Virus record (IMG/VR): IMGVR_UViG_3300036715_004472
Location: 1-35,182 of that record
Reading direction: 5' to 3' (one strand)
From: a virus
Length of the DNA stretch: 35,182 nucleotides
Each line of letters begins with the position of its first letter. Positions within the stretch are counted from its first letter, which is position 1. Positions 2,708-23,722 of this stretch are shown here, in pieces. The position numbers and the translations under genes were made by a program. The notes under the pieces are model-generated. The model ran no database searches and was not told the DNA's origin. It saw only the letters and a program-made list of their open reading frames with translations.

Positions 2708-3258
2708 CGGGCTTCTCCTGCGATGAACAGGGCGTCGAGCTGGGCGTCGGTAAGGCCCAGGGCGGTGGCGAGCACGGCGACGAAGCCGTTGGCACGGACC
2801 ACGCTGCTGCTGTATTCCCATTCGATGCGCGCGCGGGTCTTGGCGGGCTCGCTGAGCGCATTGATGGCGGCGTCTACTGCGTCGAGCATGCCGGCCTGCA
2901 GCAAGGCCAGGCGGGCCTGGCGCATGGTGATCTGCGCGGGCACAGTGGGGGGCAACGTGGGCGGCTCAGCCGTAAGGCCCAGGCTGGGCAGGGTATCGCC
3001 CAGGGCGGTGATGGTGACCGCCCTGCCCTGCGCATCATAGCCGACGGTGCCGCGCCAGTCGGCCACCAGATACCACTCTGCGGCGCCGAGCACGGCTACC
3101 TGGTGCGCGCCAGGCTGGGGCGGCGCCAGCGTGGTGGCGCCGGCGGGGATGAGCCACTCGGGCTGGTCGGGATCGAAGGGGCCGAAGGCGGGGTTGCGGC
3201 GAGCGGGCTCGGTGCGCAAGTATTCGCCGGTAGCCTGGTCGAAGTGGTGCAGATCCAT
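2704..3258 (-). CDS. Tail fibre assembly-type / phage tail accessory protein
   Basis: A 184-residue protein from MDLHHFDQATGEYLR (ATG 3256-3258). The N-terminal half carries elements common in tail fibre assembly and related proteins: a 'Y in, features out' opening, then FDPDQPEWLIPAGATTLAPP, and a WYLVADWRG segment. The C-terminal half is helical (about 130-184) and contains AQITMRQARLALLQAGMLDAV, a motif widespread at the end of fibre-associated proteins of Betaproteobacteria phages. It directly follows the collar-domain fibre gene, ten bases away, which supports a chaperone or fibre-assembly role. Assignment is by pattern and position. Confidence 0.65.
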   Translation of the reverse strand: MDLHHFDQATGEYLRTEPARRNPAFGPFDPDQPEWLIPAGATTLAPPQPGAHQVAVLGAAEWYLVADWRGTVGYDAQGRAVTITALGDTLPSLGLTAEPPTLPPTVPAQITMRQARLALLQAGMLDAVDAAINALSEPAKTRARIEWEYSSSVVRANGFVAVLATALGLTDAQLDALFIAGEAR

Positions 3259-3268
3259 TGCGGGCCTC

Positions 3269-5082: not shown

Positions 5083-5369
5083 GATGGCGATGCCTCCCCT
5101 TGCTGGGAACCGCTGGCCTCCATCAGTCGGTTTTCCAAAGCGACGAAGAGTTCATCCATAGGCGCTAACCACTTCACGGTCTCCTCCGGTCTCGCCTTGA
5201 TCAGCAACTCCAAAGCAGCATTGAGTTGAGGCCGACTCTTGATCAGCGTTGTGGCTGCAAGGATGACTTGGCTTTGGCGCGCACAGGCTAAGCCGGCACG
5301 CATCTTGATCACGGTCTCTTCTACGATCTGTCTCGCGTCGGCAATCTGCTCCGAGGTGAAGGTGTCCAT
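5079..5369 (-). CDS. Small helical phage protein next to tape measure gene
   Basis: A 96-residue protein with strong AGAGGAG before ATG (5367-5369), 11 bases after the tape measure stop. It is predicted nearly all alpha-helical (SEQIADARQIVEETVIKM; LNAALELLIKARPEE) with no membrane span or signal peptide. The position corresponds to where small minor tail proteins lie in lambda-like phages, but the sequence shows none of their motifs. Function unknown. Confidence 0.65.
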   Translation of the reverse strand: MDTFTSEQIADARQIVEETVIKMRAGLACARQSQVILAATTLIKSRPQLNAALELLIKARPEETVKWLAPMDELFVALENRLMEASGSQQGEASPS

Positions 5370-5380
5370 GCTTGCTCCTC

Positions 5381-8300: not shown

Positions 8301-10543
8301 CGCTCCTGGGCGATGAGCGCGCCCTTTTGCGTCAAGTCCAGATTGGTGTCGTGCTCGATGTTGTAGATGCGCTGCTTGAGCGCCAGCTCGATGCGCAGCT
8401 GCTCCAGGGTGACCTGGCGCTGTGTCTGGGTCTGGCCGCCAAGGGTGAGCTGGTAGGCCAGCAGCGTGTTCTCAGCCTGGATGGCCTCCACCTGGCGGTA
8501 GATGGCAGCGCCCTGGTTCTCGAAGTTGCGGCTCTTGTTGACGATGTCCAGGGCCTTCTCGGCCTGGTACTGCTCGATCTCGGCGGCGGTGACGGCAGCG
8601 ATGGCAGTCAACAACTTGTACTTGGCAATTTTGAGCTGATCGGTGCCCTGCAAACGTACAGTGTTGGCATCGAGGTCTGCCTGGGCGATCTGCGCGCTGA
8701 GCTGAGCCTGCTCGCGCTCGGTGTTCTGCTTGCTGCGGGCAATGCCCAGCTCGCCCTGCAGGGCCTGCTTGCGGATGGCAATGGCGTCCAGTTCCAGCTG
8801 GGTGTTGGCCTTGATGTAGTCCTCTTCGGTGATGAACCCTGTTTTGCGCGCAGTGTCCAGCTCGATCTGGCCGCGCTTGACCAGCTCCAGGCGCGCCGAC
8901 TCGGCTTCCTGGATCTGGACCAGGTTGACGCCGGTGTCGTACTGCTGGTTGACCAAGCCCAAGGCGGCGGCCAGCTTCTTCGCGCCCTGCTCCTGCGTGT
9001 AGACGCCCTGGGCGACGGCGGCGTTGATCTCGTTCGTGCGGTTGAGTTCTTCGTCTTGTTTGCGCAGGGCGTTGGACTTGTTGTCCAACAGGAATTGATC
9101 CAGGCTGACGGCCTGCTTGCGGGCCTCGTTGTAGGCCCCCGCAGCCTTTGCAGCTTCCTGCTGCTGATTGACGATGCCGGCGAGCGCCGCCTCCTGGGCC
9201 GCCAGTTGCTTGTCTGCGGTGCCCGCCTGGGCTTGCGCATCTTTTACTGCGCCGGCCATCCAGCCCGAATTGCCGGTGAAACCAGTGTCAGTTTGGCTCG
9301 CCAGGGCTGCCCGCTGTGCGCGAATTGCAGCGAGCTGCTCTTCAGGGGTGAAGCCACGGCCCACATCCGCGATGGAGTCCTTCACCTCCCCGGTGGCCTT
9401 TTTCACCGCGTTCCATGCGCGTTCGACCAGGCCAAGGTTTTGCACGACCTGGCGCGACATGCCGTCGGACGCGTTGGCGTAGGCGTCTTGCGCGATGCGG
9501 GCCGCCTCCTGGGTCTTGCCCTGCTCTTCCAACGCGCGCACCTGGCTGTAGACCGACGCCGTGAGAAAGTTGTATTTTTCGTCCAGCTTCTGGAGGGCGG
9601 CAGTCGGGCTTCGGCCAAGCTCCTCAAAATTCTTGACGGTCTCGCCGATGGCGGTGCCGAGTGCCTTGTTGGCATTGACTGCGGTGGCACCGAACTTGAC
9701 CAGGTTGTCACCGGAGACCTTGCCGGTTGCGGCAAGTGCGGCGACAGCTTCGGCTGCTGCCGTTTTCGTCGCACCGCTGAAGCTGGCGATTTGCGCTGAT
9801 GCCAACGCCATCTGGCCGGCTGTGGTGCCGGCCGCGTTGCCGGAGGTGATGAGCGACTTCTTGAACTCTTCGGCCTCCTTTTGGCCGGTGACGTAGCCAT
9901 ATGCCACCACGCCCACCGCCGCCGCCAGCACGGTGTACGGGTTCACCAGGCCCAGCACATACCCGCCCAGCGCCTTGGCTGCGGCGCCGGCGCCGCCGAA
10001 CATGTCCTTCAGCTGGCCGCCCTGCTGCAGCAGCACGGTGAGCGGCGCCTGGCCGCCCTGCAGGCTGGTGATGATGTCGGTGAACTGGGCGGGCACGCCG
10101 CGCAGGGCGGCGGCGGTTTGCTTGGCGGAGATGCCCAGGTTGTCGAGCACGGGCTTGCCGGCCTGCAGGGCGGCATTGGCAGCGGGCTGCTTGGCCTGGA
10201 CGGCATCGAGCTGGTCCAGGTAGGGCTTGAGGACGGCCAGGTCAACGCCCTTTTGCGAGGCGAGGACTTCGAAGTACTTGGAGTTGGCGCGGCTGCCGGC
10301 TTCCACCTGGGCGGTGGTGCGCTGGATGGACTGCACCAGGCTGGAGGTGGCGCGGTCGAACTTCTGCGCGCCGGCCTGGGCGCCGGCGGTGATGCCGTCC
10401 ACGCCCTTGCTGGCCTTGCCGGAGACGGCGGCGACGCCGTCGGCCATGCGCTCGGCAGCGGCCTCTACCTGGGCAAAGCCGGCGGCGGAGGGGCCGGCAT
10501 CTACCTCAACAGGTATCTGGATCTTGCGGTCTTCGGTGGTCAT
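5381..10543 (-). CDS. Tail length tape measure protein
   Basis: A 1720-residue scaffold that sets tail length and is expected to pass into the host envelope during ejection. The N-terminus (to about residue 270) matches the prophage tail length tape measure domain: YFEVLASQKGVDLAVLKPYL, then GVPAQFTDIITSLQGGQAPL and LLQQGGQLKDMFGG, followed by a hydrophobic helix near 185-215. A long coiled-coil region runs to ~780. A lambda gpH-like segment follows near 780-820 (VVNLFKNLVLRPIVNAIVNP), then a Gly/Ala-rich hydrophobic stretch at about 835-935. The remaining ~780 residues are again helical. Using the usual ~0.15 nm per residue, the tail would be roughly 250 nm if the whole chain were counted. 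The gene overlaps the chaperone stop as ATGA. Confidence 0.93.
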   Translation of the reverse strand: MTTEDRKIQIPVEVDAGPSAAGFAQVEAAAERMADGVAAVSGKASKGVDGITAGAQAGAQKFDRATSSLVQSIQRTTAQVEAGSRANSKYFEVLASQKGVDLAVLKPYLDQLDAVQAKQPAANAALQAGKPVLDNLGISAKQTAAALRGVPAQFTDIITSLQGGQAPLTVLLQQGGQLKDMFGGAGAAAKALGGYVLGLVNPYTVLAAAVGVVAYGYVTGQKEAEEFKKSLITSGNAAGTTAGQMALASAQIASFSGATKTAAAEAVAALAATGKVSGDNLVKFGATAVNANKALGTAIGETVKNFEELGRSPTAALQKLDEKYNFLTASVYSQVRALEEQGKTQEAARIAQDAYANASDGMSRQVVQNLGLVERAWNAVKKATGEVKDSIADVGRGFTPEEQLAAIRAQRAALASQTDTGFTGNSGWMAGAVKDAQAQAGTADKQLAAQEAALAGIVNQQQEAAKAAGAYNEARKQAVSLDQFLLDNKSNALRKQDEELNRTNEINAAVAQGVYTQEQGAKKLAAALGLVNQQYDTGVNLVQIQEAESARLELVKRGQIELDTARKTGFITEEDYIKANTQLELDAIAIRKQALQGELGIARSKQNTEREQAQLSAQIAQADLDANTVRLQGTDQLKIAKYKLLTAIAAVTAAEIEQYQAEKALDIVNKSRNFENQGAAIYRQVEAIQAENTLLAYQLTLGGQTQTQRQVTLEQLRIELALKQRIYNIEHDTNLDLTQKGALIAQERAKAALASDNVARKAYVDEWQRAADTVSNDITDAFVRAVDSGKSLFVELRDSVVNLFKNLVLRPIVNAIVNPIASSIVSSLGLAGASGAANAAGSGGSSLLGNVGGAASLFGAGGLTGSLAAGAGWLTGATSFTGALSAGASLIGTGTAAGIASGLGVVAGALGPIALGVAAISAIISSNRGTPTSSMGDSNATFDATGKALTRNVFGPTSWTPTPSSNSEAVVAQLEKTYLETVANLGIKAAVTNFSYSGNTGKDGKDPQFGLGGAAGSSSFVQGETKLTDDAVKLATSRALLAALEGSDIPDYLRKVFDGLTPASATQAQIDAALADAQAIASVHKALDQLPAAFDSLKAASTDTLQALVANAGGLDTFTANLRTYYDAFATAEEKRADTITSITRTLGAAGLNVSADQVANATRDQFRAIVQAASTTIAQDGGKLYAALLSVAGQFNDLVPAAADAGTAVDDLAKTMAQVAATRQAWQDKLDVLQGKTTQRAVDLQNDLAGVTDAATQAIIRQYYAQLDLKDAATAAADALKTASDAAKTAIDNARQALADARSQADTNVQNALSGVQRAVDAEKQRVTDAFNLKDAAFASSISSLGDTINSLQSLANPLRSALSTLSASSLTPDQQRAQARAMVEAALSDARAGRTVTPSDTLTGAIGTLSKVDPAAYASRAAYLGDVNKTTATLSELAGLTDDGLSIAQKQLKATQDARDAAKKAADEQLSALDNQLATAQAQVNALYSIDDSVKSVSSAIAALSAAITGRSNVGEGKTVTATAAAFLLGNSGQNGVSTYTNDQVKSLSTAEAARALLAAIYSTAFVGLNKSPTGLDPVKVAALAPQVASLADFFGKLTAEQRAALDPGTKAWAKAFGIPGFAVGINQVPADMLALLHKDERVLPAADNRELFARLRNPSPGIEGLVAELKVERAQTALLNQRVETLLATIARNTKATSRTLDDVVNGDSSINSKSVT

Positions 10544-10833
10544 GGTGGCGGTGTGTCCGGTGTCATGGCGTCGATGGCTTCGAACTCCATGACGCGAACG
10601 TCCTGGAGCAGCAGCTCGTGGTCTTCTTCGGTGAGCTGCATGCGGGCCAGCCGCGTGTACAGCACGTTGTAGTCAAGCCCGATGAGGCAGGCGGGGCCCG
10701 CGCGCCACTGGCTGCGCATGAAGCTGAAGAGGAGGTAGGCCTCCCAGTTCTCGGGCCAGACCTCGGTGGAAGGGATGTCTGCTTCGGTAAGGCCGGCGGC
10801 CTTCCATTCGGCCATGTCCACCCGGGTGAACAT
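10540..10833 (-). CDS. DUF1799-like tail assembly protein (T part of the G-GT pair)
   Basis: A 97-residue frame with Met at 10831-10833 and four-base overlap with the tape measure gene. Features: a DMAEWKAAGLTEADIP opening, aromatic WPENWEAYLLFSFMRSQWR, then a GLDYNVLYTRL segment typical of the small DUF1799-type proteins found after tail chaperones. The frame is open upstream of this Met back through the end of the preceding gene, where a slippery GGGAAAC lies. It is therefore most likely made mainly as the C-terminal part of a frameshift fusion, as lambda GT is; independent initiation is possible but lacks a clear binding site. Confidence 0.75.
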   Translation of the reverse strand: MFTRVDMAEWKAAGLTEADIPSTEVWPENWEAYLLFSFMRSQWRAGPACLIGLDYNVLYTRLARMQLTEEDHELLLQDVRVMEFEAIDAMTPDTPPP

Positions 10834-10850
10834 GGCGCGGCTTACCGCTC

Positions 10851-11258
10851 TCAGTTTCCCAAGCGGCCTTCGGTGATGGCGGCGCGGTAGGCCTCCATGG
10901 CGGCGACGATGGCGCCGGGGACTTCGTCGTTGAGCTGCTCGATGTTGTCCAGGGTGAACGCATCGGGCAGGTCCCAGCCGTTGGCGGCCTCCAGGATGTA
11001 CTTGGCGTTGCTCTCGTTGGTGCTGGCCATGAGGTCGGCCATGCTGAAGGCTGCCGGGCTGCTGGCGACGCTGGCGGCCGCTGTGTCGTCGCCGGCCTTG
11101 CGGGCATCAGCCACGACGCTGTCGATGAAGGCGCCGAACTCTTTGCGGGTGCGATATTTGAAGTCCCACTGGATGACGCCGGTGGTGCCATCGAGCAGAG
11201 GAAACTTGACCGGAGTGCGGAAGCTGGTGGGGCGCTTGCCCAGGGTGATTTTTGACAT
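10851..11258 (-). CDS. Tail assembly chaperone (lambda gpG-like)
   Basis: A 135-residue protein with ATG at 11256-11258. It has the common opening of siphophage tail chaperones (MSKITLGKRPTSFRTPVKFP, then a GVIQWDFKYRTRKEFGAFID segment), an Ala/Ser-rich linker, and a C-terminal helix (NIEQLNDEVPGAIVAAMEAY). Such proteins coat the tape measure protein and recruit tail tube subunits. It lies between tail tube and tape measure genes exactly as expected and ends on the frameshift signal, so two products, short and extended, are predicted. Confidence 0.88.
   Translation of the reverse strand: MSKITLGKRPTSFRTPVKFPLLDGTTGVIQWDFKYRTRKEFGAFIDSVVADARKAGDDTAAASVASSPAAFSMADLMASTNESNAKYILEAANGWDLPDAFTLDNIEQLNDEVPGAIVAAMEAYRAAITEGRLGN
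10854..10860 (-). other. Programmed -1 ribosomal frameshift site GGGAAAC
   Basis: Read on the minus strand, the end of the chaperone gene is TTG GGA AAC TGA. The heptamer G GGA AAC is in the correct X XXY YYZ register and immediately precedes the zero-frame stop. A -1 slip places the ribosome on GGG AAA CTG AGA GCG GTA AGC CGC GCC ATG, which is open into the DUF1799-like frame. The product would be 135 residues of the first protein plus 104 more, 239 in total. Lambda uses GGGAAAG at the same place. Confidence 0.85.
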
Positions 11259-13357: not shown

Positions 13358-13933
13358 CTACATCTCCCAGATCTTGTAGGCGTCGAGCATGCGGTCGTGG
13401 ATGCCCAGGGTGAGCATCTGCGCGCGCTGGATGACTTCGCTCTCGCGGTTTTCGTACAGGGTGCCGACGCACAGCTTGATCCAGTCCTTGAAGGCGTCAG
13501 GGACGCTGGCGGCGTCGGCATAGCCGGCGACGTACTGGAGCTTGACGGCGTTGATCTGCACGCACGTGGCCGGCCAGGTGGTGCCGTAGGCGGGCACCAC
13601 GTAGGCGCTGCCGTTGTCGTCGGCGTTGTCCAGCAGGTACTGGTTGCTGGCGAGCGTCTGCGCGATCCCATTGACGTCCACGTAGATGAGGCTGGCCACG
13701 GACTGCACGGGCACGCGGGTGAGCCTGAAGGCGCTGGGGAAGGCGTCCAGCGTCAGCTCATGCGTTTGCGGCATGACGGCGCGGCCGGTGGCCTGCTCGG
13801 CCATGCGGGTGGCCGTGCGTATCCAGCCGTCGACCAGCGAGTCTTCCACGCTGCCGCTGATGCGGGCGGCCAGCTTGGCGTCGGCGGTGAGGACTGCTGG
13901 CGCGCTGGGCGGGGTGATGAGTCTCAGGGCCAT
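13358..13933 (-). CDS. Head-tail connector (HK97 gp6-like)
   Basis: A 191-residue protein with AAGGT before ATG (13931-13933). It opens MALRLITPPSAPAVLT and continues with a helical region (AARISGSVEDSLVDGWIRTAT, RMAEQATGRAVMPQTHELTLDAFP) and the LTRVPVQSVASLIYVDVNG strand region characteristic of gp6-like connectors. The length exceeds the HK97 protein because of a C-terminal helical part ending KIWEM. It forms the ring beneath the portal. The family's usual partner order (connector, adaptor, gp10, terminator) is kept here. Confidence 0.87.
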   Translation of the reverse strand: MALRLITPPSAPAVLTADAKLAARISGSVEDSLVDGWIRTATRMAEQATGRAVMPQTHELTLDAFPSAFRLTRVPVQSVASLIYVDVNGIAQTLASNQYLLDNADDNGSAYVVPAYGTTWPATCVQINAVKLQYVAGYADAASVPDAFKDWIKLCVGTLYENRESEVIQRAQMLTLGIHDRMLDAYKIWEM

Positions 13934-13935
13934 GG

Positions 13936-14853
13936 TTACCTTGGGTTCCTACCGGTTGACTGTGTGTGGGCGGGTCTGCCCGATGCCTGGCTGTTGGCCG
14001 GGCGGGTACCTGGTGCGTGGGGGCGGTTGCCCACCAAAGCGCCATATGTCACGACCACCGGCTGCGTGCCGCTGAGCGCGATGGTGGTGCTGGGCCGTGC
14101 AGACGTGTGCACGGCATAGGGCCACGGTTGCACCGGCGGCAGCACCACCGGGGTGCGCAGGATCTGCACGCCGAGGATGGGAACGAGGGCCGCGATCTCC
14201 AGCCAGGGCTGCTGCGTAGCGTATGGCCAGGTGGCTTGGCCAAGCTGGGGCAACGTGGCGAAGGGAACCTGTGTCGGCGCTGATGGCATGGACCTGGCCA
14301 CAAGTTGCTGCGCCTGTGCCGCTTGCGGCCGCGGCGCCATCGCCACCTGGCCGGGCGGGATCTTGGTGCCCAGATTCGGCACCAGGGCGGCGATCTCCAG
14401 CCAAGGCTGCTGGGTGACGTAGGGCCAGGTGGCCTGGCTGAGCTGGGGCAGCGCGGCGAAGGGAACCTGTGCCGGCGCAGGCGGAATGGCCCTGGCCACC
14501 GGCTGCTGGACTGGCACGAAGGCCGGCTGCGCCACGCGCAGCACTGGGCTGGGCGGGATCTGCGTGCCGATGGCCACCGGCAGCACGGCGGCCAGCTCGA
14601 CCATTGGCTGCTGGGTGGCATAGGGCCAGTCGGCCGCCCTGCCCTGCGCCAGTTGACCAGGCGGCACCGCTGCGGCCGGGGACACGATGGGCGCCCGAGC
14701 GCGCGGCTGGGCGGCTGCGTAGGCCCAGGGTTGGGCCTGGACCGGCATCTCCACATTGCTGGCGGGAACGACCGGGCCGCTGGCGCCGGTGACGAACAGC
14801 GCCAGACCGGCGACGATGACCTGCGGTGATGCTGGTGGGCGGAAGAGTGCCAT
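13936..14853 (-). CDS. Proline/alanine-rich repeat protein of unknown function
   Basis: A 305-residue protein (ATG 14851-14853, coupled to the previous stop). It starts with a hydrophobic stretch (about 10-30, VIVAGLALFVTGASGPVV). It then repeats a unit beginning WPYATQQP...EIAALVP...IPP: full copies at about 76-142 and 143-208, a shortened one at 209-243, and degenerate copies at 41-75 and from 244. The C-terminus is Arg/Pro/Ser-rich. The repeats are visible in the DNA at about 200-bp spacing. Pro-rich and evenly spaced Trp/Tyr suggest an extended structural or surface protein. Its place in the head gene block suggests a head-associated role. No known family recognised. Confidence 0.6.
   Translation of the reverse strand: MALFRPPASPQVIVAGLALFVTGASGPVVPASNVEMPVQAQPWAYAAAQPRARAPIVSPAAAVPPGQLAQGRAADWPYATQQPMVELAAVLPVAIGTQIPPSPVLRVAQPAFVPVQQPVARAIPPAPAQVPFAALPQLSQATWPYVTQQPWLEIAALVPNLGTKIPPGQVAMAPRPQAAQAQQLVARSMPSAPTQVPFATLPQLGQATWPYATQQPWLEIAALVPILGVQILRTPVVLPPVQPWPYAVHTSARPSTTIALSGTQPVVVTYGALVGNRPHAPGTRPANSQASGRPAHTQSTGRNPR
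14125..14628 (-). repeat. In-frame tandem repeats (~198-201 bp) in the proline-rich gene
   Basis: Units at 14428-14628, 14230-14427 and a partial one at 14125-14229. The second and third begin with nearly the same coding sequence (WPY-TQQPWLEIAALVP) and the first two share PAPAQVPFAALPQL / SAPTQVPFATLPQL. High nucleotide similarity shows recent in-frame duplication rather than convergent composition, and makes the locus prone to copy-number change. Confidence 0.8.
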
Positions 14854-14854
14854 T

Positions 14855-15877
14855 TCAGTGGGCCAGGAGGGCCATCATGGAGGGACGGTGGAGCGAGTCT
14901 TCTAAGTAGGTGGAACCACCACCGCCGCTAACGAACTGCCAGCAGCCACCGTCATTACTGGCGCCGCGCGTCGTGCCGGCGATGTCCACCGGCAAATTGG
15001 TGTTGTCCACAGTACCCGCTCCAATCAAAGCGCTGCTGGACTTCAGCCGGAAGTCGCGCGTACTGTCAACGGTGTTTTGGAAGCCGCTGCCAGTGGTCGT
15101 GTCATAGGTGACGGTTGTCCACCCTGTTTTGGTGCCGTCACACTGAGAGGTGGTGATATTGCTCGTGATATTGGCTGACGCCGCGCATGGTTCGGTGGCA
15201 CCAAATACCGCGCAGTTCTTGAAGTTCCAGGTGGTGTACGAGCCAGCCACACCGTTGGTTGCCTTTGTCAGGTCGGACGGGCAGACAAAGTCGCAATTGT
15301 AGAAATTGATCGTTCCGCTGTCGGCGCGAACGATCAACGAAGAGCCACTTGTGCGCTGAACCACCAGCGTGTTCTTGAGCGCTCCGCTGGTGCTGCACGA
15401 CATCCGCAGCACACCGCCATAGGAGTCGGTGCAAGACCCCTCGACAATCAGGCCATCAATGACTGCGCCTACTGCGGCATCAACCGCCAAAGATATGGTG
15501 TGGGCCGAGCTGCTGCTGAACTGAAGCTTGCTGATGCGACTGTAGTTCTCCGTGGTGAGCACCAATGGCGCATAGCTGACATTTCCCGAGATACTCGCGC
15601 CGTTTGCCGTGTTGTAACGCAACGCGTTGGTTTGCACGCTGCTGTCACGAAAGCTCGCGCCCGCTACTGTCGTCAGCTCCTTGTAGCGCGTTGCATCACT
15701 CGTGGTCCCAGCTATGGTCAGCAGCGTTCCGCTGGTGACCGGGAAATTCTGATTCTGGCACTGTCCCTGCCAGACTTGATCAACAGCAGTCAAATCAGCA
15801 GGTGCTGCATCCTCCCAGGCTTGAAGCGTCGAATAGTCGCCGGTGCTGCCTATGGTCTTGACGACGGTGGTGGTCAT
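14855..15877 (-). CDS. Beta-helix-type structural protein, possible head fibre or decoration
   Basis: A 340-residue protein (ATG 15875-15877). The N-terminus (KTIGSTGDYSTLQAWEDAAP) is the 'G..DY.tlq.w' entry motif often seen before parallel beta-helix domains. It continues through short Asn/Ser/Thr-rich strands (about 90-250: ISGNVSYAPLV, ISLAVDAAVGAVIDGLIVEG, INFYNCDFVCPSD, WNFKNCAVFG) and ends with DFRLKSSSALIGAGTVDNTN plus a GGCWQF element, common at the end of such repeats. No catalytic residues were identified. It lies in the head module, not among the tail fibres, so a capsid-surface adhesin or fibre is a plausible inference. Confidence 0.68.
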   Translation of the reverse strand: MTTTVVKTIGSTGDYSTLQAWEDAAPADLTAVDQVWQGQCQNQNFPVTSGTLLTIAGTTSDATRYKELTTVAGASFRDSSVQTNALRYNTANGASISGNVSYAPLVLTTENYSRISKLQFSSSSAHTISLAVDAAVGAVIDGLIVEGSCTDSYGGVLRMSCSTSGALKNTLVVQRTSGSSLIVRADSGTINFYNCDFVCPSDLTKATNGVAGSYTTWNFKNCAVFGATEPCAASANITSNITTSQCDGTKTGWTTVTYDTTTGSGFQNTVDSTRDFRLKSSSALIGAGTVDNTNLPVDIAGTTRGASNDGGCWQFVSGGGGSTYLEDSLHRPSMMALLAH

Positions 15878-16281
15878 AGCACATTGGGGTCAGTCAGCGG
15901 CGGCTTGGCGATCTTCAGCGCCAGCAGGCCAGGCAGTGAGAGGCTGGCGCGCGCCGATGGGTTCTGGCGCTTGTGGTCAGCCATCACACCCGCCACGGCT
16001 GCCGGCAGGTTGGCAATATCCAGCTTGAACGCACGCCGCTGCAGCACGCGGCTTGGATTGTACGGATCGATGTCGAACTCGGGACCGAGGAAGGCGCTGG
16101 CCTGCGACACCGTGATACCTGGCACCTTGACGATGCGCCAATCCGGGTTGGAGTACTCTTCGCGGCCCCACACCCAGCCATCTGGCTGCACGACGATCAC
16201 ATCACCGCGTTTGGTGCACTTGGCATCCAGATAAGGATCGGCGTTGACCTTATCGACAACACGGACCAGCAGCTCGGCCAT
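15874..16281 (-). CDS. Hypothetical head-block protein (135 aa)
   Basis: ATG at 16279-16281 overlapping the next gene's stop, and a four-base overlap with the beta-helix gene. The N-terminal half (LLVRVVDKVNADPYLDAKC, KRGDVIVVQPDGWVWGREE) looks like a small beta domain also found in phage head genes that handle coordinates such as 'DPYLDAKCTKRGDVI'. The C-terminal half is helical. No catalytic motif. Function unknown; co-expression with head genes is evident from overlaps. Confidence 0.65.
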   Translation of the reverse strand: MAELLVRVVDKVNADPYLDAKCTKRGDVIVVQPDGWVWGREEYSNPDWRIVKVPGITVSQASAFLGPEFDIDPYNPSRVLQRRAFKLDIANLPAAVAGVMADHKRQNPSARASLSLPGLLALKIAKPPLTDPNVL

Positions 16282-16613
16282 CAGGCATAAGCCTCAGTCC
16301 AGCCGTCGTAGGCTTGCACTACCTCGCCCTGCGCATCGCGGTGGGCGTAGATGCAGTGGCCCATGCTCGCATCTTCCAGCGCGGTCAGGCGGTGGCACAC
16401 ATCAGCCCTGACCAATACCCAGTTGTGGCCATCGCTGGCGCGCTTGACGACAGTGTTCTCCACCGAGCCATCGGCGTCCAGGCGCTCGATCTTGAGCGCG
16501 CCACGCGCGACGTAGGTGGTGTGGTCGAAGTTGTGGGCGTGGCCTTCAACCACGTCGCCAGCCTTCTCGAACCGCATCTCGCGGATAAAGATGTTGCCTT
16601 GCACGTATTCCAT
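16281..16613 (-). CDS. Small cupin-like protein
   Basis: A 110-residue protein from MEYVQGNIFIREM (ATG 16611-16613; longer frame rejected because it would read into the neighbouring gene). It has a cupin-like motif 1, GHAHNFDHTTYVARGAL, with H25, H27 and H31, and a second histidine region, ADVCHRLTALE (H74). This suggests a small metal-binding beta-barrel. In phages such proteins occur as virion or head-block proteins without known activity. Catalysis cannot be inferred. Overlaps at both ends place it in the head operon. Confidence 0.65.
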   Translation of the reverse strand: MEYVQGNIFIREMRFEKAGDVVEGHAHNFDHTTYVARGALKIERLDADGSVENTVVKRASDGHNWVLVRADVCHRLTALEDASMGHCIYAHRDAQGEVVQAYDGWTEAYA

Positions 16614-16939
16614 CAGGCCACCACGCGCGTCTGTTCCTGCCGAATGCACGCCAGCAGGTGCAGCATGGTCATGTTCAGCGTGGTGTTCTGGCCCAGCGGT
16701 GCACCGGTGGCGGGATCAACCATGGGAATGGGATCATTTCCGGCATTGGCCAGGTCAATGGACCGGCTGATGGTGGGCAGCTCCTGCAGTTTGCGGATGG
16801 AGCCGTCGGCCAGCTTCACCGCCAGGCCTTGCACGATCTCCATGCTGGGCGGCAGACCGCTGTCCGGATAGTTGATGGTGATCTTGTACCCGCGATCATA
16901 GGGGACACCGACCTGCGAGGTATCGTAGTTGCTTGCCAT
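16613..16939 (-). CDS. Hypothetical head-block protein (108 aa)
   Basis: GAGGT lies seven bases before ATG (16937-16939). Contains YDRGYKITINYPDSGLPP and VQGLAVKLADGSIRKLQELP, suggesting a small beta-rich domain, followed by PMVDPATGAPLG and a helical end (NMTMLHLLACIRQEQTR). No motif that I recognise. Stop overlaps the cupin-like gene's start, so translation is probably coupled. Confidence 0.65.
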   Translation of the reverse strand: MASNYDTSQVGVPYDRGYKITINYPDSGLPPSMEIVQGLAVKLADGSIRKLQELPTISRSIDLANAGNDPIPMVDPATGAPLGQNTTLNMTMLHLLACIRQEQTRVVA

Positions 16940-16948
16940 GATTCGACC

Positions 16949-17302
16949 TCAGTCCGTCAAAATTTGTTTCTGGCTGGCGTCGGCATGCCCAATAGGCAGC
17001 ACACGCTGCAGCCAGTTGATCGGGTAAGCGTAGACGCCGGCATTCAGCTTGCGGCCGAGGTCATCGATCAGCTCGACCTCGCTGACCCACTCGTCCACGC
17101 GCTGGCCGCAGTGTTCGCAGTAGATGGTGCCCAGCACCGGATCGTTGACGACACGCACCAGCAAGCCGGTTTCTTCGCTGCCGGGGACGCAGCGGTGGTC
17201 GCGCTTGACCACCGCCTTGTCGCCCGCGCGCGGCGTGACTGGGGAGAGCAGATGGCTCTTCCAGAACGCCGAGCGCAGATCGGCAGAAACGCGATCAGGC
17301 AC
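16949..17302 (-). CDS. Hypothetical head-block protein with CxxC pair
   Basis: A 117-residue protein starting at GTG (17300-17302), overlapping the preceding gene by eight bases. The sequence includes DKAVVKRDHRCVPGSEETG and YCEHCGQRVDEWVSE, giving a CxxC plus a further Cys/His pair that may bind zinc. The rest looks like a small beta-barrel. The pattern resembles small phage proteins encoded near capsid genes, but no function can be assigned. Confidence 0.62.
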   Translation of the reverse strand: MPDRVSADLRSAFWKSHLLSPVTPRAGDKAVVKRDHRCVPGSEETGLLVRVVNDPVLGTIYCEHCGQRVDEWVSEVELIDDLGRKLNAGVYAYPINWLQRVLPIGHADASQKQILTD

Positions 17303-17774
17303 CGCGCAATTCCATAAACACCAGCTCGCTGAACCAGGTGGAGTTGAAGGCGGTCAGCAGGGTCTGGGCAATGATGCCGCCCTGGGGCACGATGACTCGC
17401 TCCTCCGGGGTGTACACCGTTTCCTGACCATTGAGCACATTGAAGCCGCGCGACAACGTCTGTTCGCCGTTGGTGCCCTCGGCCGAGGCCGTGATGCCGG
17501 TGGCGGACGTTCCGAGCGATGCGTCGGTGGTAGGCGCGTTGCCATTCTGCTTGAGCAGCGTGGTGCCGGCCACGGCGGTGGTGACGGTGGCGGCGGCCGT
17601 CTTGCGCTGCAGCGTCATGCCCACCTGGGTGGAGGTGACGGAGCCGGACTGCGTCAGCGAATGGCGCAGGATGGCCACGGCGCCATTGGTGCCGGCCTTG
17701 AGCTGCGCGGCGGAAACGGCGCCCGCGAGGGACACACCGTTGTTCTTCAGGATGTAGGACTGAAAGGTGAACAT
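17295..17774 (-). CDS. Putative virion structural / decoration protein
   Basis: A 159-residue protein with GGAG before ATG (17772-17774). It is rich in Gly, Ala, Ser and Thr with alternating hydrophobic residues (VSLAGAVSAAQLKAGTNGAV, QVGMTLQRKTAAATVTTAV), then TVYTPEERVIVPQGGIIAQTL and TWFSELVFMELRGA at the end. This profile, a small all-beta protein, matches phage surface or decoration proteins rather than enzymes. It lies three genes downstream of the capsid gene. The role is inferred from composition and position only. Confidence 0.62.
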   Translation of the reverse strand: MFTFQSYILKNNGVSLAGAVSAAQLKAGTNGAVAILRHSLTQSGSVTSTQVGMTLQRKTAAATVTTAVAGTTLLKQNGNAPTTDASLGTSATGITASAEGTNGEQTLSRGFNVLNGQETVYTPEERVIVPQGGIIAQTLLTAFNSTWFSELVFMELRGA

Positions 17775-17812
17775 GAGTTTTCTCCAGGTAGTGAGTCGGT
17801 ACGGCGGGCGGG

Positions 17813-18067
17813 TCAGTCGGCCTGAACCACTGCGCAGCCGGCAAAGGCTGCGGCGTCGGCCAGGTCGTCGTGGGTGAACATGGCCGTGGCGTCGGCCTCG
17901 GTGTCGTACTTGATGGCCTGCGCCACCGTGACGGCCGCAAATTCCGGCTCCAGGATGGCCTGGGGATCGGTCATGGCGGGGTTGCCCGCGCGCGGGATGT
18001 ACTTGGTTTCAACGACGCGGTTGCCGCTGTAGAACAGACCTTGAGGATTTTGGATGGCGAAGCGCAT
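17813..18067 (-). CDS. Small hypothetical head-block protein (84 aa)
   Basis: Start MRFAIQNPQGLFYSG (ATG 18065-18067) with GGAG upstream; a longer start at 18157 would be coded through two strong inverted repeats and is not preferred. The sequence reads like a compact mixed alpha/beta domain (KYIPRAGNPAMTDPQAIL; AAVTVAQAIKYDTEADATAM; DDLADAAAFAGCAVVQ). No known motif. It is preceded by an unusual pair of hairpins (18109-18156). Confidence 0.6.
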   Translation of the reverse strand: MRFAIQNPQGLFYSGNRVVETKYIPRAGNPAMTDPQAILEPEFAAVTVAQAIKYDTEADATAMFTHDDLADAAAFAGCAVVQAD

Positions 18068-18108
18068 GGCGTGGATCTCCGGGTTGGGTGGGTGGGCGTT
18101 GCTCTGCA

Positions 18109-18156
18109 ATGCGCTGCCGGTGGGCAGCGCATCACGCAGCAGTGCAGACGTCTGCA
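18109..18156. repeat. Strong inverted repeat plus 14-bp palindrome
   Basis: 18109-18132 is a perfect 10-bp stem with a four-base loop (ATGCGCTGCC/GGCAGCGCAT). 18143-18156 is the perfect palindrome TGCAGACGTCTGCA. Neither is followed by a T-run on the minus strand, so a simple terminator is unlikely; an RNA processing signal, protein-binding site or partial terminator is possible. Confidence 0.6.
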
Positions 18157-18167
18157 TGGCGCCGGGC

Positions 18168-18509
18168 TTACTGGGCGGGTTGGTTTTGCGGTAGGGTCAG
18201 GGCGTAGGCGACGGCGGCTTTGTCGGCATCTGCTACGCCAAGGCCCAAGGCCTCTTGTGCTGCGGTTGCTGACAGGGTGACCACATCATTGACTTTGCCA
18301 TGCAAGCACTCGGCCAGCAGACGGATGCGCACGGGCTTGGTGTTGGGCGCAGCCGCTTCAGGGTCGGCGTAACGGGCCAGCTTTTCGTTGACCAGGACGG
18401 CAGCGCGAGCGTCCTCGGCTTCAAATTCAGCGCCGGTGGCGATGGCCACGGAGTCGGCTGACAAAGCGCCTGCAGCGATGATTTCCAGGGCAATGAGTTT
18501 TTTGGGCAT
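18168..18509 (-). CDS. Hypothetical head-block protein next to the capsid gene
   Basis: A 113-residue protein starting MPKKLIALEIIAAGALSAD (ATG 18507-18509, GGAG seven bases upstream). It contains GAEFEAEDARAAVLVNEKLA and PVRIRLLAECLHGKVNDVV, a pattern seen in small proteins encoded right after the capsid gene of HK97-like phages that sometimes act as head stabilisation or DNA-packaging accessory factors. The remainder is helical. No experimental role is implied by the sequence alone. Confidence 0.68.
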   Translation of the reverse strand: MPKKLIALEIIAAGALSADSVAIATGAEFEAEDARAAVLVNEKLARYADPEAAAPNTKPVRIRLLAECLHGKVNDVVTLSATAAQEALGLGVADADKAAVAYALTLPQNQPAQ

Positions 18510-18620: not shown

Positions 18621-19868
18621 TTAGGTTGCGCTGTGCTGGTACAGCTTGACGGCGTTGGTGTCCAGCAGGTTGCCGCCGGTGCGGGCCCAGGCCATGAAGC
18701 CGATCTGGCCCAGCTTGATGTAGGCCGAATCGTCAAAGCGGAACATGGTCATTTCCATGGCGTCGCGGATCATGTAGCGGTCTAACAGGCCGAAGGCCAG
18801 GGACTTGGCATTGGCAGCGGGCACGGGCATGTCGTTGTTCAGGTTGACCGGATAGCCCAGCAGCAGGTCGGGCATGCCAACACCCATGCCACCGTCGTAG
18901 CTGGGCGTCCAGATCGGACGGCCGGCGGTGTCCTTGATCTTGCGGATGACGCGGCGCAGCGTCTGCGAGAACATCCAGGACGGAAGGCCGTTGACGTCCT
19001 TGTCGGTGCCGGAGTGCGACAGGTAGGCTGCGTCCAGGCTGTCCGCCATGTCGACCAGGTCGTCATAGATGATGGTCAGGGTCTGGCCGGTGGTGCCGGT
19101 CTTACCGACCGAGGCCTGGGTGACCAGGCCGAACGGGTCAGTGGTGCCGCCGCCGGTGGTGTAGCCAACGTTGCTGATGCGGCCGATACGGTCGCGCAGC
19201 CGCTTGAACACCATGGCCTGGATGTCGATCTGGCTGTCTTGCAGCAACTCGAACGGCACGGCCACCACTTTCGACGAGGCTTTGAACACGTTCAAGGCGA
19301 CGGTACCGAAGGTCGGGTCTGCACCGGTGGCCGTGGTGTTCTGCGCAATCCACTCGCCGGTTTCCGACGTGCCATCGGTGGTGGGGAAGGACAGCGGGTT
19401 GCCCATCGCGGTACTGAGCTGGGAGGCCACGCGGCGCATGAAGCCGTAGGCCTTCAGCAGGTCAATCAACTGGTTGGCAACTTCGGACTCGACGCTATAG
19501 CCGCCCTGCGAGCCGGTGGTGGTGCTCATGGTGTTGCGCACCAGCAGGGCTTCTTCCACCGTCATGTCCTTGAACGACTTGCGCATGAAGACGTTCAGGG
19601 CCTTCATAGCGGGCGTTAGCTGCTTGCCGTTCTTGGCATTGCGGTCGATGCGGTGATCGTCAACATCGGTGAAGTTCTCTTCACGGTCCTTGGCGATCAT
19701 CTTTTCGTGGGCGGCGATCTGGCGCTGGGTGCGCTCAACGTCGTCCATCAGGTCGTCGAACTTCTTCTGGTCATCCTTCGACCAGACTTGAGAACCTTTG
19801 TCGGCCAACAGGGCGTTGGCTTCTTTGTTGGAGGCTGCTACGCGCTCCCGGAGTGCTTGAATGCTCAT
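18621..19868 (-). CDS. Major capsid protein, HK97 fold
   Basis: A 415-residue precursor (ATG 19866-19868; AAAGG six bases upstream). Residues 1-~100 are a charged coiled-coil delta/scaffolding domain (ALRERVAASNKEANALLADK; FDDLMDDVERTQRQIAAHEK). The mature HK97-like body starts near STTTGSQGGYSVESEVANQL and includes the usual DGTSETGEWIAQN, GTVALNVFKASSKVVAVPFE and a C-terminal FGLLDRYMIRDAMEMTMFRF domain. The delta domain should be removed by the protease encoded upstream (19942-20685). This should be the most abundant head protein. Confidence 0.95.
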   Translation of the reverse strand: MSIQALRERVAASNKEANALLADKGSQVWSKDDQKKFDDLMDDVERTQRQIAAHEKMIAKDREENFTDVDDHRIDRNAKNGKQLTPAMKALNVFMRKSFKDMTVEEALLVRNTMSTTTGSQGGYSVESEVANQLIDLLKAYGFMRRVASQLSTAMGNPLSFPTTDGTSETGEWIAQNTTATGADPTFGTVALNVFKASSKVVAVPFELLQDSQIDIQAMVFKRLRDRIGRISNVGYTTGGGTTDPFGLVTQASVGKTGTTGQTLTIIYDDLVDMADSLDAAYLSHSGTDKDVNGLPSWMFSQTLRRVIRKIKDTAGRPIWTPSYDGGMGVGMPDLLLGYPVNLNNDMPVPAANAKSLAFGLLDRYMIRDAMEMTMFRFDDSAYIKLGQIGFMAWARTGGNLLDTNAVKLYQHSAT

Positions 19869-19941: not shown

Positions 19942-20685
19942 TCAGATAGGGGTGACCAGGCGCAGGCGGTTGCGGTTGCGCTGGATCTGCGCGGCGGCCA
20001 GGGCGGCCAGATCGGGCTCGGGCTCTTTGGGCTCGGGTTGCTTGGGGGCGTTGGGATAGGCGGCCAGGTTCCAGCGGGCCTGGGCCTTGCTGTCGGTTTG
20101 CTTGGTGTTGGAGTCGATGGCGTCGATGAACTTGGCGTCCAGCGCTTCCTGGGCGGTGAACCAGGTGGTGGCGTTCATCCAAGTGGCCACCTGCTCGGCG
20201 CTGGCGCCGGTCTTGCGCTGGTAGTCCGCGGCGATGGTGCCGTCGATCTTGTCCAGCAGGTCGGCCGTCTCGCGCAACTCGTTCTTGTTGCCGTAGGCAA
20301 ACGTCCAGCTGTTGTGCACCATGAACAGGCCGCCATCGGTCATGCGGACCTCGTTGCAGGCCAGGGCCAGGTAAGTGGCGGCGCTGGCACAGATGCCGTC
20401 GATATGCGCGACGACGGTGCCTTGATGAGCCACCACAGCCGCAGCCATTGCGCGAGCCTCGAACACATCTCCGCCTGGGCTGTTGATGTGCAGGTGGGTG
20501 ACCTTGTCGGTGCCCACGGCTGCCAGGGCGGTGATCAGCGCTGAGGCGCTGGCGCCCCAGTAGCTGTCGATCACGTCGTTGACATAGACGTGGCTCTCTG
20601 CGTCGGTGGTTTCCTGGCGGATGGGCACCGGGCCTTCCGCGCGGGCGTTGTCCTTCAGCAGCTGCATCAGGTGATTGAGTTTCAT
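19942..20685 (-). CDS. ClpP-like prohead protease
   Basis: A 247-residue serine protease (start MKLNHLMQLLKDNARAE, ATG 20683-20685) that should remove the capsid delta domain during head maturation. ClpP fold signatures: HLHINSPGGDVFEARAM at 64-80 (oxyanion/substrate loop), nucleophile S101 in DGICASAATYLALA, catalytic H124 in FMVHNSW, and WFTAQEALDAKFIDAI near 175-190. The third catalytic acid of ClpP is not obvious (N171 lies there), as in several phage members. The C-terminal 45 residues are a Pro/Glu/Lys-rich tail (PKQPEPKEPEPD) probably autoprocessed. Overlaps the portal stop. Confidence 0.92.
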   Translation of the reverse strand: MKLNHLMQLLKDNARAEGPVPIRQETTDAESHVYVNDVIDSYWGASASALITALAAVGTDKVTHLHINSPGGDVFEARAMAAAVVAHQGTVVAHIDGICASAATYLALACNEVRMTDGGLFMVHNSWTFAYGNKNELRETADLLDKIDGTIAADYQRKTGASAEQVATWMNATTWFTAQEALDAKFIDAIDSNTKQTDSKAQARWNLAAYPNAPKQPEPKEPEPDLAALAAAQIQRNRNRLRLVTPI

Positions 20686-22052
20686 GCGGGTTCTCCGTCC
20701 GTGGTGTCGGGTTTGGTGGGTTTGGCGGTGGTGCCGGCCTGGGCCTTGAACAGGGTGTCCCCGTTGGCCTTGGGCGGCAGGTGCTGCAGGCGGCGCACTT
20801 CGTTCTGCGACATCCAACCGTCGCCAGAGCCGGGGCCACCGAGCGCTGCCTTGTAGAACTCGGCCAGCGCCTTGCTGTCGCCGCGCAGCAGGTCGGTCAT
20901 GTCGAACTCGACGTACTGGCCGGCGCGGCGGAACAGCTTGCGGTTCAGTTCGTCGCGCCAGACCTTGGCCATGGGCTTGACGGTGAACTTGACATAGCCC
21001 AGAGTGATCTGCTCGATGCCGGCGCCCCAGGCGCTGACCTTTTCGGTCTTGCCGATCAGCACGGGCGGCACGCCGGTGACTTCGTTGATGGCGGTGGACT
21101 CGAAGTTGCGCATCTCCAGCAGTTGCATATCCACCGGGCTGATGCTGAGCTGCTTGACATCGCCGCCCTCGGTCAGCACCAGGGGGAACTTGCGGTTGCC
21201 GACGCCGGAGTAGGTGGCGACAAAGCTCTCGCGCAGGGCCTGAGCCTGCTCCTTCGTCATCTTGTTGGCAAACTTCAGCGCGATCTGCGGCATGGCGCCC
21301 TCGCCCACGGTGCGGCCGGTGTACTCGGCGGCGGCCAGGCTGTTGCCTACGGCCTGGCGCGCTGCGTAGGTGATGGCACTGAGCGAGCGCACACCGTCAA
21401 AGCCTAGGCCGGTGAAGTGCAGCATGTCGTCCTGGTCGACGGTGTCCACCTGACCGGTGAAGCGGTCCAGGATGTCGTACACCAGGCGCTTGCTGCCGTC
21501 GTCGGCAACCCAGACGCGGGGGATGACGAAGTCGGGGTGCAAGGGCTCCAGGCCGGTGACCTGGCCACCCTTGTTCGCGCTGCTGCGCAAGATGCGGGTG
21601 TACTGGTCGCCGCGCAAGGCAACGCAGCGGACGATCCACTCCTTCCAGTTGCTGGCCGTCCACATGGGGTGCGGCTGCTCGTTCAGCAGCCACCAAAGGC
21701 TGCTGTTGCGCACCTGGTCGCGGTTGCCCTCCTTGTCTTCGGTGTACTGGTTACAGGGCAGCTGCAGCATTGCGCCTGCGTTGATGCGGATGCAGGCGTA
21801 AACGGTGCTGACCATCATGGCCGAGCGCTCGTTCACCGGGAAACCGCTGGCGGACAGGATGGGCTGAAACAACTCCTTCATGGCGCCGCTGTCGGAGCTG
21901 ACCACCGGGTAGGTGCGCTGGTTGCTGACCTGGAGCGTGGTGCCGACAGTGGATTCGTAGCCGGTGCGCTCGGCAAAGCCCGGGCGTGACGCGGCCCACT
22001 GCGCCAGCGCGCGCGAGGTGTAGCGCGTTACGTCCAGGTTGATGTGGGTCAT
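20682..22052 (-). CDS. Portal protein, HK97 family
   Basis: A 456-residue dodecameric ring subunit through which DNA enters and leaves the head. Family landmarks: VNERSAMMVSTVYACIRINA (about 73-92), LPCNQYTEDKEG, SSLWWLLNEQPHPMWTASNW, DDMLHFTGLGFDGVRSLSAI, and ESTAINEVTGVPPVLIGKTE near 320-340, followed by an EQITLGYVKFTVKPMAKVWRD-type helix. The C-terminal 60 residues include GWMSQNEVRRLQHLPP, a helical crown element. It overlaps both the terminase and protease genes by four bases. Confidence 0.94.
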   Translation of the reverse strand: MTHINLDVTRYTSRALAQWAASRPGFAERTGYESTVGTTLQVSNQRTYPVVSSDSGAMKELFQPILSASGFPVNERSAMMVSTVYACIRINAGAMLQLPCNQYTEDKEGNRDQVRNSSLWWLLNEQPHPMWTASNWKEWIVRCVALRGDQYTRILRSSANKGGQVTGLEPLHPDFVIPRVWVADDGSKRLVYDILDRFTGQVDTVDQDDMLHFTGLGFDGVRSLSAITYAARQAVGNSLAAAEYTGRTVGEGAMPQIALKFANKMTKEQAQALRESFVATYSGVGNRKFPLVLTEGGDVKQLSISPVDMQLLEMRNFESTAINEVTGVPPVLIGKTEKVSAWGAGIEQITLGYVKFTVKPMAKVWRDELNRKLFRRAGQYVEFDMTDLLRGDSKALAEFYKAALGGPGSGDGWMSQNEVRRLQHLPPKANGDTLFKAQAGTTAKPTKPDTTDGEPA

Positions 22053-23722
22053 TGAAGTACTACAAAGCCTTGTTGGATTTCGCCGGTGTCATTGGCCAGC
22101 GCACGACCGAGGGCCATCAGCATGGCCATGGGGCCGTCGATCTTGTTTTCTTCGCGCTCCTTTGTCGGGGAGCGCAGCTCGTTGAACTTGGAAATCTTGA
22201 CCACCAGGTTGGAGACCATCCAGGTCATGACCGGGTTGCCGTCAAACTTCAGCTTCTTTTCCAGCACCAGGTTCTCCACCTGGATCAGCGGCGGCGTGTA
22301 GAACATCGCGCGCTGGGTGATCTCCACCAGCGGCAGGCCTTCCTCGATCAGCTTGCCGGCGAAGTACATGGACAGGGCCGGGTCGAAGGCGATCTCTTGC
22401 ACGTCGAACTGGCGGCAGTAGCTGCGCATGTCCTCGGCCACCACGTCGAAGTCCGTGATGTCGCCATCTGTGACCTGCACATAGTTTTGCCTGGCCCAGC
22501 CGCTCAGATGGGCGTTGCCGCTCTCATGCACCGCCAGCTCGTTCAGGTAGAGCCGGATGAACACGTACCAAATGCCCTCGCGGTAGAACACCAGGCAGAG
22601 GGCGGCGAAGTCTTTCTTCTGCGCCAGGTCCAGGCCCATGAAGCAACGCTCGCCCTGGAAGTCGGCCAGGCTCATGCAGACGTCTGCACAGCGCGCCCAG
22701 GCCACCATGTCCATCCACGGGCTCTCACCGCTAACCCAGACGTTGAGCCGCTTGGTCAGGAAGTTGTTCATCGCCGACGGCATGGCGGCGGCCTTGCGGG
22801 CGGCGGCTTCCATGTCGTCCAGCAGAACGGAGACCAGCCAGTTCGGGTTGGCCTTGGCCCAGCTGCTGGGCAGCAGCGGGTCGTCGCCTTCGTCGATGGT
22901 GTAGATGATCCCGAACATGCTCGGGTCATCGATCACGCTCTCCAGCACCTTGGTGATGTGGGTGCGGCGCTCGTAGCAGATGCCGCTGCGGTCGCTGCCG
23001 GCGGTGGTGATGTTCCACAGCAGGGACTGCTCGCGGGCGCCGCGCGCGGTGTCGATCACATCATAGACGGCGCGCGTCTTGTGCGCGTGCAGCTCGTCGA
23101 TGCAGGCGAAGTGGATGTTTAGTCCGTCCAGCGTGCTGCCCTCGGACGCCAGCGGCAGGAACTTGCTGGCGGTGGCCGCGACCGTGATGCTGTGCTGCAG
23201 GATGGCCACGCCCAGGTAGGTGCGCAGATCCGGCGTGCGCTCGGCCATGGCCTTGGCATCGTCGAACACGATGCGTGCCTGGTCGCGGGTGGTGGCGGCG
23301 GAGTAGACCTCGGCACCGTGCTCGCCGTCGCCGGCCAGCATGAAGAGGGCGATGCCGCTGGACAGCGTTGACTTGGCGTTCTTGCGGGGCACCTCGATGT
23401 AGGCCTCGCGGAAGCGCCGCAGGCCGGTGTCGCGGTGAATCCAGCCGAACACCGTGGTGATGATGAAGCACTGCCAGGGCTCCAGCTTGATCAGCCGGCG
23501 CTCGCGTGCCCACTTGCCCTTGATGTGCGGCAGGCCTTCAATGAAGTCGCAGGGCTTAGTGGCCAGGGCGGCGTCGAAGATCCACGGCCATTCGGCAGAG
23601 GGTTCGCGCGCCAGATCTGCGGCCTGGCGCTCCACGGCCAGGCGCACCCATTTGCAGGCCGGGATCTCGCCCGCCTGGATGCGCCGCGCATATTCGTGCG
23701 CAGCGATGACGTAGCGGTTCAC
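22049..23722 (-). CDS. Terminase large subunit
   Basis: A 557-residue packaging motor with ATPase and nuclease. It starts at GTG (23720-23722), overlapping the small subunit stop as GTGA. N-terminal ATPase: Walker A variant VPRKNAKST at 111-119, Walker B FACIDELHAH at 205-214, and the C-motif-like WNITTAG at 236-242. C-terminal RNase H-like nuclease: GLDLAQKKDF (D365, D371), IAFDPA (D447) and KIDGPMAM (D529). All acidic residues expected are present. The length and order match the Terminase_1/HK97-like class. Confidence 0.95.
   Translation of the reverse strand: MNRYVIAAHEYARRIQAGEIPACKWVRLAVERQAADLAREPSAEWPWIFDAALATKPCDFIEGLPHIKGKWARERRLIKLEPWQCFIITTVFGWIHRDTGLRRFREAYIEVPRKNAKSTLSSGIALFMLAGDGEHGAEVYSAATTRDQARIVFDDAKAMAERTPDLRTYLGVAILQHSITVAATASKFLPLASEGSTLDGLNIHFACIDELHAHKTRAVYDVIDTARGAREQSLLWNITTAGSDRSGICYERRTHITKVLESVIDDPSMFGIIYTIDEGDDPLLPSSWAKANPNWLVSVLLDDMEAAARKAAAMPSAMNNFLTKRLNVWVSGESPWMDMVAWARCADVCMSLADFQGERCFMGLDLAQKKDFAALCLVFYREGIWYVFIRLYLNELAVHESGNAHLSGWARQNYVQVTDGDITDFDVVAEDMRSYCRQFDVQEIAFDPALSMYFAGKLIEEGLPLVEITQRAMFYTPPLIQVENLVLEKKLKFDGNPVMTWMVSNLVVKISKFNELRSPTKEREENKIDGPMAMLMALGRALANDTGEIQQGFVVLQ

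Follow-up and report, generated by a model that had tools for sequence, protein, structure and literature searches.

The 35,182-base virus record IMGVR_UViG_3300036715_004472 (hereafter, the window) contains a block of nine minus-strand open reading frames (ORFs), denoted g1 to g9, that fills positions 13936-18509, with the capsid gene on one side and the connector gene on the other. Our favored reading, held at about even confidence, is that the insert within this block is a swappable virion-fibre cassette in which the g3 protein (17295..17774; 159 amino acids (aa)) is a hub that would hold exchangeable appendages by short terminal peptides. Under this scheme, g3, the core of a group of genes that we denote module A, would be a small virion-mounted jelly-roll protein that probably forms trimers. 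In relatives, the product of the gene directly upstream would plug into g3 with a C-terminal peptide of the N-T-L-L-R-M type, and an N-terminal peptide of the (V/I/F)-(Y/F)-R-(R/P)-P type would attach the repeat-rich protein encoded downstream (g9 in the window). The g2 and g4 proteins would be small helpers, and a second cassette, g5-g8 (module B), would have been inserted between g4 and g9 in the window phage; within it, g8 probably binds or cuts surface polysaccharide, g6 might be a metal-site cupin, and g5 and g7 might be two small partners. The constant adjacency of g3 to the peptides leads us to suggest, with some reservation, that g3 is the docking site, and adsorption to host glycans is the somewhat probable role of the appendages. 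Most likely, the genes of the block encode virion appendages, namely, fibre, glycan-binding and repeat proteins.

Terminal peptides encoded next to the putative hub gene

The genes that precede g2/g3 in related loci encode dissimilar proteins with similar ends (NTLLRM, NTLLRR, NPILAR, NALLVN and STHLRM), and a loose version of this pattern matches 14 of 3094 ORF ends, 9 of them in the position before g2/g3. When 2.9 million viral contigs were screened for an NTLLRM-coding sequence followed by a stop, with an AGG arginine codon required and g3 not used, 26 contigs were identified, half of which (13) have the motif at the end of an open frame of at least 229 codons and the other 13 at the end of a frame of at most 60 codons. 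A g3-family gene, as detected with a g3 profile that was built from loci found by g3 sequence, is located directly downstream in 13 of the 13 long-frame matches (in L064, with g2 in between) vs. 0 of the 13 short-frame ones. Of the long-frame contigs, four had previously been found as g3 loci, one nearly duplicates another contig of the set, and eight are new, with seven of the eight new hubs forming a branch of the MGRMYS type. The reverse test, with an MGRMYS hub rather than the peptide as the query, yielded 18 loci.

Conserved terminal peptides are present at hub loci: among 28 such loci that were not selected by the peptide, 11 have an upstream gene with a terminal RM, compared with 14 of the 4764 remaining ORF ends (Fisher p 1e-19), and 17 have a matching end under a looser reading that includes NPILAR, NALxVN and RR; the regular expression and the tail classes were defined after the g3 loci had been seen and, for those loci, this test by hub sequence is not independent of the definition. 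The bodies of the 25 motif-bearing proteins sort into 23 groups that are not linked by BLASTP similarity at 1e-3, which suggests that the plug is constant and the body is swapped. Among 10 upstream proteins compared with Pfam, one contains a concanavalin-A-like lectin domain (3.3e-24) and another one a carbohydrate esterase domain (5e-21).

On the other side of the hub, 26 of 36 loci contain, at most 700 nt downstream, a gene with the pattern (V/I/F/L/A)(Y/F)R(R/H/Q/P/S/L) within the first 16 residues, against a background of 1.5% of start positions; at least L016 appears to be read in the wrong frame and several starts were tried per locus, so that the true contrast is somewhat smaller. Mostly, the post-hub gene opens with a (V/F)YRRP-like motif. 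Before all counts, loci L003-L005 and L007-L009, which lie within the contigs of L012, L014-L017 and L021, were dropped, and duplicates or near-identical loci (L017, L025, L028, L031, L051, L052, L062, L064, L065, L067, L070, L073, L078, L079 and L083; L017, L028 and L031 judged by hits only) were left out of the 36-locus or the 25-protein set.

Distribution and predicted structure of the proposed hub module

In the window, module A consists of g2 (17813..18067, 84 aa, within a longer ORF that begins at 18157), g3 and g4 (16949..17302, 117 aa, with a GTG start and a CEHC cysteine pair). Direct search detected relatives of g3 in 7 loci and the g3 alignment in 16, on partly shared contigs; in a profile search of 18 loci, 15 contained g3, and both g2 and g4 were present in the same eight of these 15 (L006, L012, L014, L016, L018, L019, L021 and L022). 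The g3 protein is 64% identical to its homologue in L005/L015, while the capsid proteins are only 45% and the terminases 37% identical. Thus, module A recurs in environmental phages with different terminases and is portable. Its location varies as well: it is found upstream of the terminase gene in L012, L016, L019 and L022 (in L016, upstream of TerL, with the capsid and connector genes only about 600 nt apart; in the other three, far upstream of the capsid gene), downstream of the capsid gene in L015 and L018, and upstream of the connector gene in L020. In L056 (2939-11404), the hub cassette is located between genes that by eye appear to encode the major tail protein (tail tube) and the tape measure, which speaks against a strictly head-bound role.

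A proline-rich or repeat-rich protein of 280 to 910 residues often follows module A in the relatives, and the genes in the place equivalent to that of g9 start with FR or YR motifs. The g9 protein itself (13936..14853, 305 aa), which we count with module A, contains proline-rich repeats, with 17% proline and four WPY repeats, and has the N-terminus MALFRPP. Comparison of the g3 alignment with genome contigs gave 28 pattern matches and no relative, hence no known host for g3; for the carriers, Burkholderiales are a guess based on VarioGold. On the capsid side of the hub, L013 (6202-9562) and L015 (6063-8272) encode two or three tandem proteins of 360-370 residues that by eye appear to be paralogous, and the capsid-side block of the g3-carrying contig L018 encodes, at 7137-8624, a 495-residue protein with a methyltransferase-like start, again as judged by eye.

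The g3 and MGRMYS families are homologous end to end (hhalign 99.2%, E 9e-20). The structural model of g3 (predicted local distance difference test score (pLDDT) 60.9) is mostly beta, with ten strands, and has middling matches to a Klebsiella phage baseplate part (Z 8.6), APRIL (7.4), an Agrobacterium phage tail fibre (7.1), the cement protein of Helicobacter phage KHP40 (6.8), BxpB/ExsF (6.5-6.8, including ExsF solved with an anchor peptide) and many TNF/C1q entries (6-7.4). With moderate confidence, we predict a jelly-roll, TNF/C1q-like fold. Searches of BFVD with g3 returned mostly uncharacterized phage proteins. Searches of solved chains with the g3 and MGRMYS alignments returned nothing convincing (for g3, a single chance-level match), and no PHROGs family was found at E<=0.01 for g3, with all aligned relatives scanned, or for six MGRMYS-type hubs.

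Phage cement proteins clamp capsomers, and the matched KHP40 protein, a trimer, is likewise a small head protein; g3 differs in that its neighbours suggest a fibre mount. Two described systems resemble the proposed arrangement. In the head spike of RcGTA, the jelly-roll base Rcc01079, a pentamer on capsid pentamers, holds the fibre Rcc01080, which is flexible and binds capsule polysaccharide, by a leucine-rich N-terminal peptide inserted in hydrophobic pockets (PMC7296036). The likeness would lie in a jelly-roll-type base (predicted for g3, with Z up to 8.6) and a short terminal peptide on the appendage, whereas the fibre peptide described there is N-terminal and the main motif in the hub loci is C-terminal, with the second one N-terminal; we claim no relatedness. 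The Bacillus ExsF trimer takes short anchor peptides of collagen-like fibres (BclA/F-Anchor) in clefts between subunits (PMC11952670), and the g3 model resembles ExsF. That system, however, belongs to a spore coat rather than a virus, its peptides are longer and close to the N-terminus, and a profile search of solved chains gave no sequence link between g3 and ExsF. No description of the motif or the cassette was found in the open-access literature (subscription journals and bioRxiv being outside the scope of the search), and the cassette is widely scattered and apparently undescribed.

The second module and the head operon of the window

The module B genes, g5 (16613..16939, 108 aa), g6 (16281..16613, 110 aa), g7 (15874..16281, 135 aa) and g8 (14855..15877, 340 aa), recur in other phages and at other places, so that this module is portable too. 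The four genes are found in the same order in L027, before a large ORF that looks portal-like, in what by eye is the terminase-portal interval; g6-g7-g8 are also present in L011, L029 and L030, and in L032, g6-g7 precede a 3127-residue protein, with g7 directly following g6 wherever both are found. The g5 protein is 60% identical to its counterpart in L027 and 50% to that in L002, and g7 is 70% identical to that in L027 (alignment of 7). The g3 profile detected no hub in the seven contigs of L010, L011, L027, L029, L030, L032 and L033; the MGRMYS profile gave one weak hub-like match in module-B contigs, beside g6 in the L032 contig (8.9e-7).

Four histidines of g6 (HxHxxxH and a later H) are invariant in all 8 aligned sequences, and its profile weakly matches cupins among solved chains (E 0.0014-0.002), the best matches being a cellulose oxidative enzyme and TM1459, with the pectin-degradation protein KdgF weaker; g6 has no Pfam match at E<=1, and the cupin identity is a lead rather than an assignment. 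The g8 protein is predicted to form a right-handed parallel beta-helix over approximately residues 1-233 (pLDDT mostly 70-89), with a low-confidence tail of about a hundred residues that ends in SMMALLAH; the model matches pectin methylesterases, lyases and tailspikes (Z 16-19) in PDB, and nothing in BFVD at E<=0.001. It shares this fold with the pectate-lyase-like tailspikes but differs from them in being short (about 233 ordered residues) and encoded next to a cupin-like gene within a head operon. No convincing match among solved chains was obtained with profiles of the g7 and g8 alignments, and no PHROGs family was found for g7 at E<=0.01 with all aligned relatives scanned. The L010 phage contig, 186 kb long and rich in fibre-like genes, carries at 7968-11179 a g6-like cupin gene directly ahead of one whose long product appears, by eye, to be a beta-helix; the pairing of cupin and beta-helix may extend beyond module B.

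The window contains the head module of an HK97-type siphovirus. Profile matches and synteny with Variovorax phage VarioGold, the closest isolate by capsid (58% identity), place its genes, on the minus strand, in the order TerL (22049-23722), portal (20682-22052), ClpP-like protease, Phage_capsid of the HK97 type (18621-19868; PF05065, 2.7e-52) and connector (13358-13933; TIGR02215, 9.4e-25), followed on the same strand by head completion, tail completion, tail tube, chaperones and a 1720-residue tape measure. The synteny extends from the small terminase to the tape measure (5381-10543), which compares with 948 residues in VarioGold and shows similarity over the N-terminal part only. No homologues of VarioGold's tailspike, NlpC, J or minor tail proteins M and L were detected in the window; the genes beyond the tape measure (2704-5380) encode just three products, namely, a phrog_6278 protein of 306 residues, a tail fibre of the collar type and a protein resembling fibre-assembly factors.

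The initial annotation had counted nine genes between capsid and connector and suggested that they might make up a surface layer of the capsid or head fibres, as a possibly undescribed decoration system. The count holds, with the likeliest starts of g2 and g6 corrected, on the basis of relatives and ribosome-binding sites, to 18067 and 16613, respectively, as do the beta-helix, cupin-like, cysteine-pair and proline-rich descriptions of g8, g6, g4 and g9. The overlapping stops and starts that it reported are real at the g3/g4, g5/g6, g6/g7 and g7/g8 junctions; elsewhere, there are gaps of 1 to about 100 nt. The block is indeed unusually long for this site: in VarioGold, which has no match to the g3 profile, the interval is 509 nt with one gene, p06, and five further isolates have between one and four annotated genes there, with two homing-endonuclease genes in the largest gap. 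The placement of the genes in the late structural operon stands, as do their undescribed status and most likely role in encoding virion appendages; a single nine-gene system was dropped in favour of one ordinary gene and two independently mobile modules. The first gene, g1 (18168..18509, 113 aa), is a homologue of VarioGold p06 (42% identity, 3e-21; its match in PHROGs, phrog_2616, is weak at E 0.009), the usual post-capsid gene, so the insert proper is g2-g9, about 4.1 kb. Nor is either module tied to the capsid-connector site, given the locations before the terminase and in the terminase-portal interval described above. For a capsid surface layer there is no direct evidence, and the data are better explained by fibres plugged into a hub.

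Database searches with the block returned little. For seven of the nine proteins, Pfam has no family at E<=1, with g3 and g7 giving sub-threshold matches only and none reaching the curated cutoff; PHROGs gave only weak matches for the nine. Among 50,697 phage records, no DNA match to the block was found, and tblastn with g3 to g8 detected nothing (g1, g2 and g9 were not among the queries). The third-position GC content of g5-g8 (0.71-0.80 vs. 0.86-0.94 in nine core head and tail genes) is compatible with a later arrival; the evidence is favorable to module B but not specific to it because low values are found also for g1 (0.67), g2 and g4 (0.82 and 0.81, with g2-g4 spanning 0.81-0.88) and g9 (0.82).

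Alternative readings and significance

Several observations weigh against the arrangement of a hub and terminal peptides. The window fits it in the hub, g2, g4 and the N-terminus of g9, but the C-terminal plug is not clearly visible in the window itself: g1, the gene upstream of g2, ends in NQPAQ, and the sole candidate, the MMALLAH end of g8, is a weak match that follows a Gly-rich stretch, is absent from the aligned module-B relatives (alignment of 6 sequences) and might represent either a plug that has diverged or a chance resemblance. Moreover, g9 lies 2.4 kb from g3, so that the window is a miss in the N-terminal count, and 11 of the 28 unselected hub loci, the window among them, have no recognizable upstream motif even under the loose reading. 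The predicted fold of g3 is only suggestive, with pLDDT 61 and no PDB match at E<=0.001 in Foldseek. Eight of the 10 scanned upstream proteins have no Pfam domain. Finally, hub and peptide do not clearly covary: the correlation was -0.07 (p 0.76) over 25 loci, 0.35 (p 0.013) over 15 unselected loci in a Mantel test that left out L071 and L075, whose bodies have relatives in the set, and -0.08 (p 0.64) in the g3 clade alone. Given these mixed results, co-evolution of hub and peptide was set aside as evidence.

The alternative that survives best, although we consider it rather unlikely, is that the peptides are true anchors that bind another part of the virion (capsid, portal, collar or each other), with g3 only transferred alongside them, perhaps as a cement protein. 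The constant adjacency of peptide and g3 would be equally expected of a co-transferred cement protein, the g3 model does resemble one, and the unclear covariation points the same way; against this, the g3 family is the only constant neighbour across contigs that differ in their terminase and capsid genes. Less probable still is a loose collection of unrelated morons that gathered where extra genes are tolerated, with some of the products acting in the cytoplasm (a cupin enzyme, for instance). The enzyme matches of g6 (weak) and g8 would be accommodated in this case, and all six inspected isolates have at least one extra gene at this site, among them the homing endonucleases in one, but the gene order is strict, the starts are coupled, and g2-g3-g4 and g6-g7-g8 have been repeatedly co-transferred as units. 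That the terminal RM is a by-product of a translation signal, with AGG-ATG-stop serving as the Shine-Dalgarno sequence of the next gene, is very improbable: in many motif loci, AGG does lie two codons ahead of the stop and the next start is at most 15 nt away, and the scan itself demanded AGG and hence cannot speak to such an origin, but the N-T-L-L part is not explained in this way, CGN arginine codons are used in L014, L015, L074 and L075 (three of the four with a separate ribosome site of their own), and the motif is kept where the next start is 39 (L069), 60 (L015) or 106 nt (L071) away; a pure Shine-Dalgarno origin was set aside on these grounds. Cargo peptides of the encapsulin type, binding an HK97 shell, were discarded as well, the case for them being no more than a resemblance and the hub cassette occurring with several capsid types.

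Returning to the swappable fibre cassette, it is possible, although we put it forward tentatively, that these loci represent an undescribed plug-and-socket display common to environmental podoviruses and siphoviruses, in which a conserved jelly-roll hub would capture one class of adhesin by an NTLLRM-type C-terminal peptide and a second, repeat-rich fibre by a VYRRP-type N-terminal one, and whole adhesins would be swapped by replacement of the gene body before a constant plug. If this is the case, unrelated phages would exchange receptor- or glycan-binding proteins without matching interfaces, the short constant peptide being the whole interface. Gene families that lack a match in PHROGs or Pfam would acquire a testable role, the peptides would provide a signature for spotting adhesin genes in uncultured phages, and the hub with its plugs might be developed into a new peptide tag for protein display on particles.

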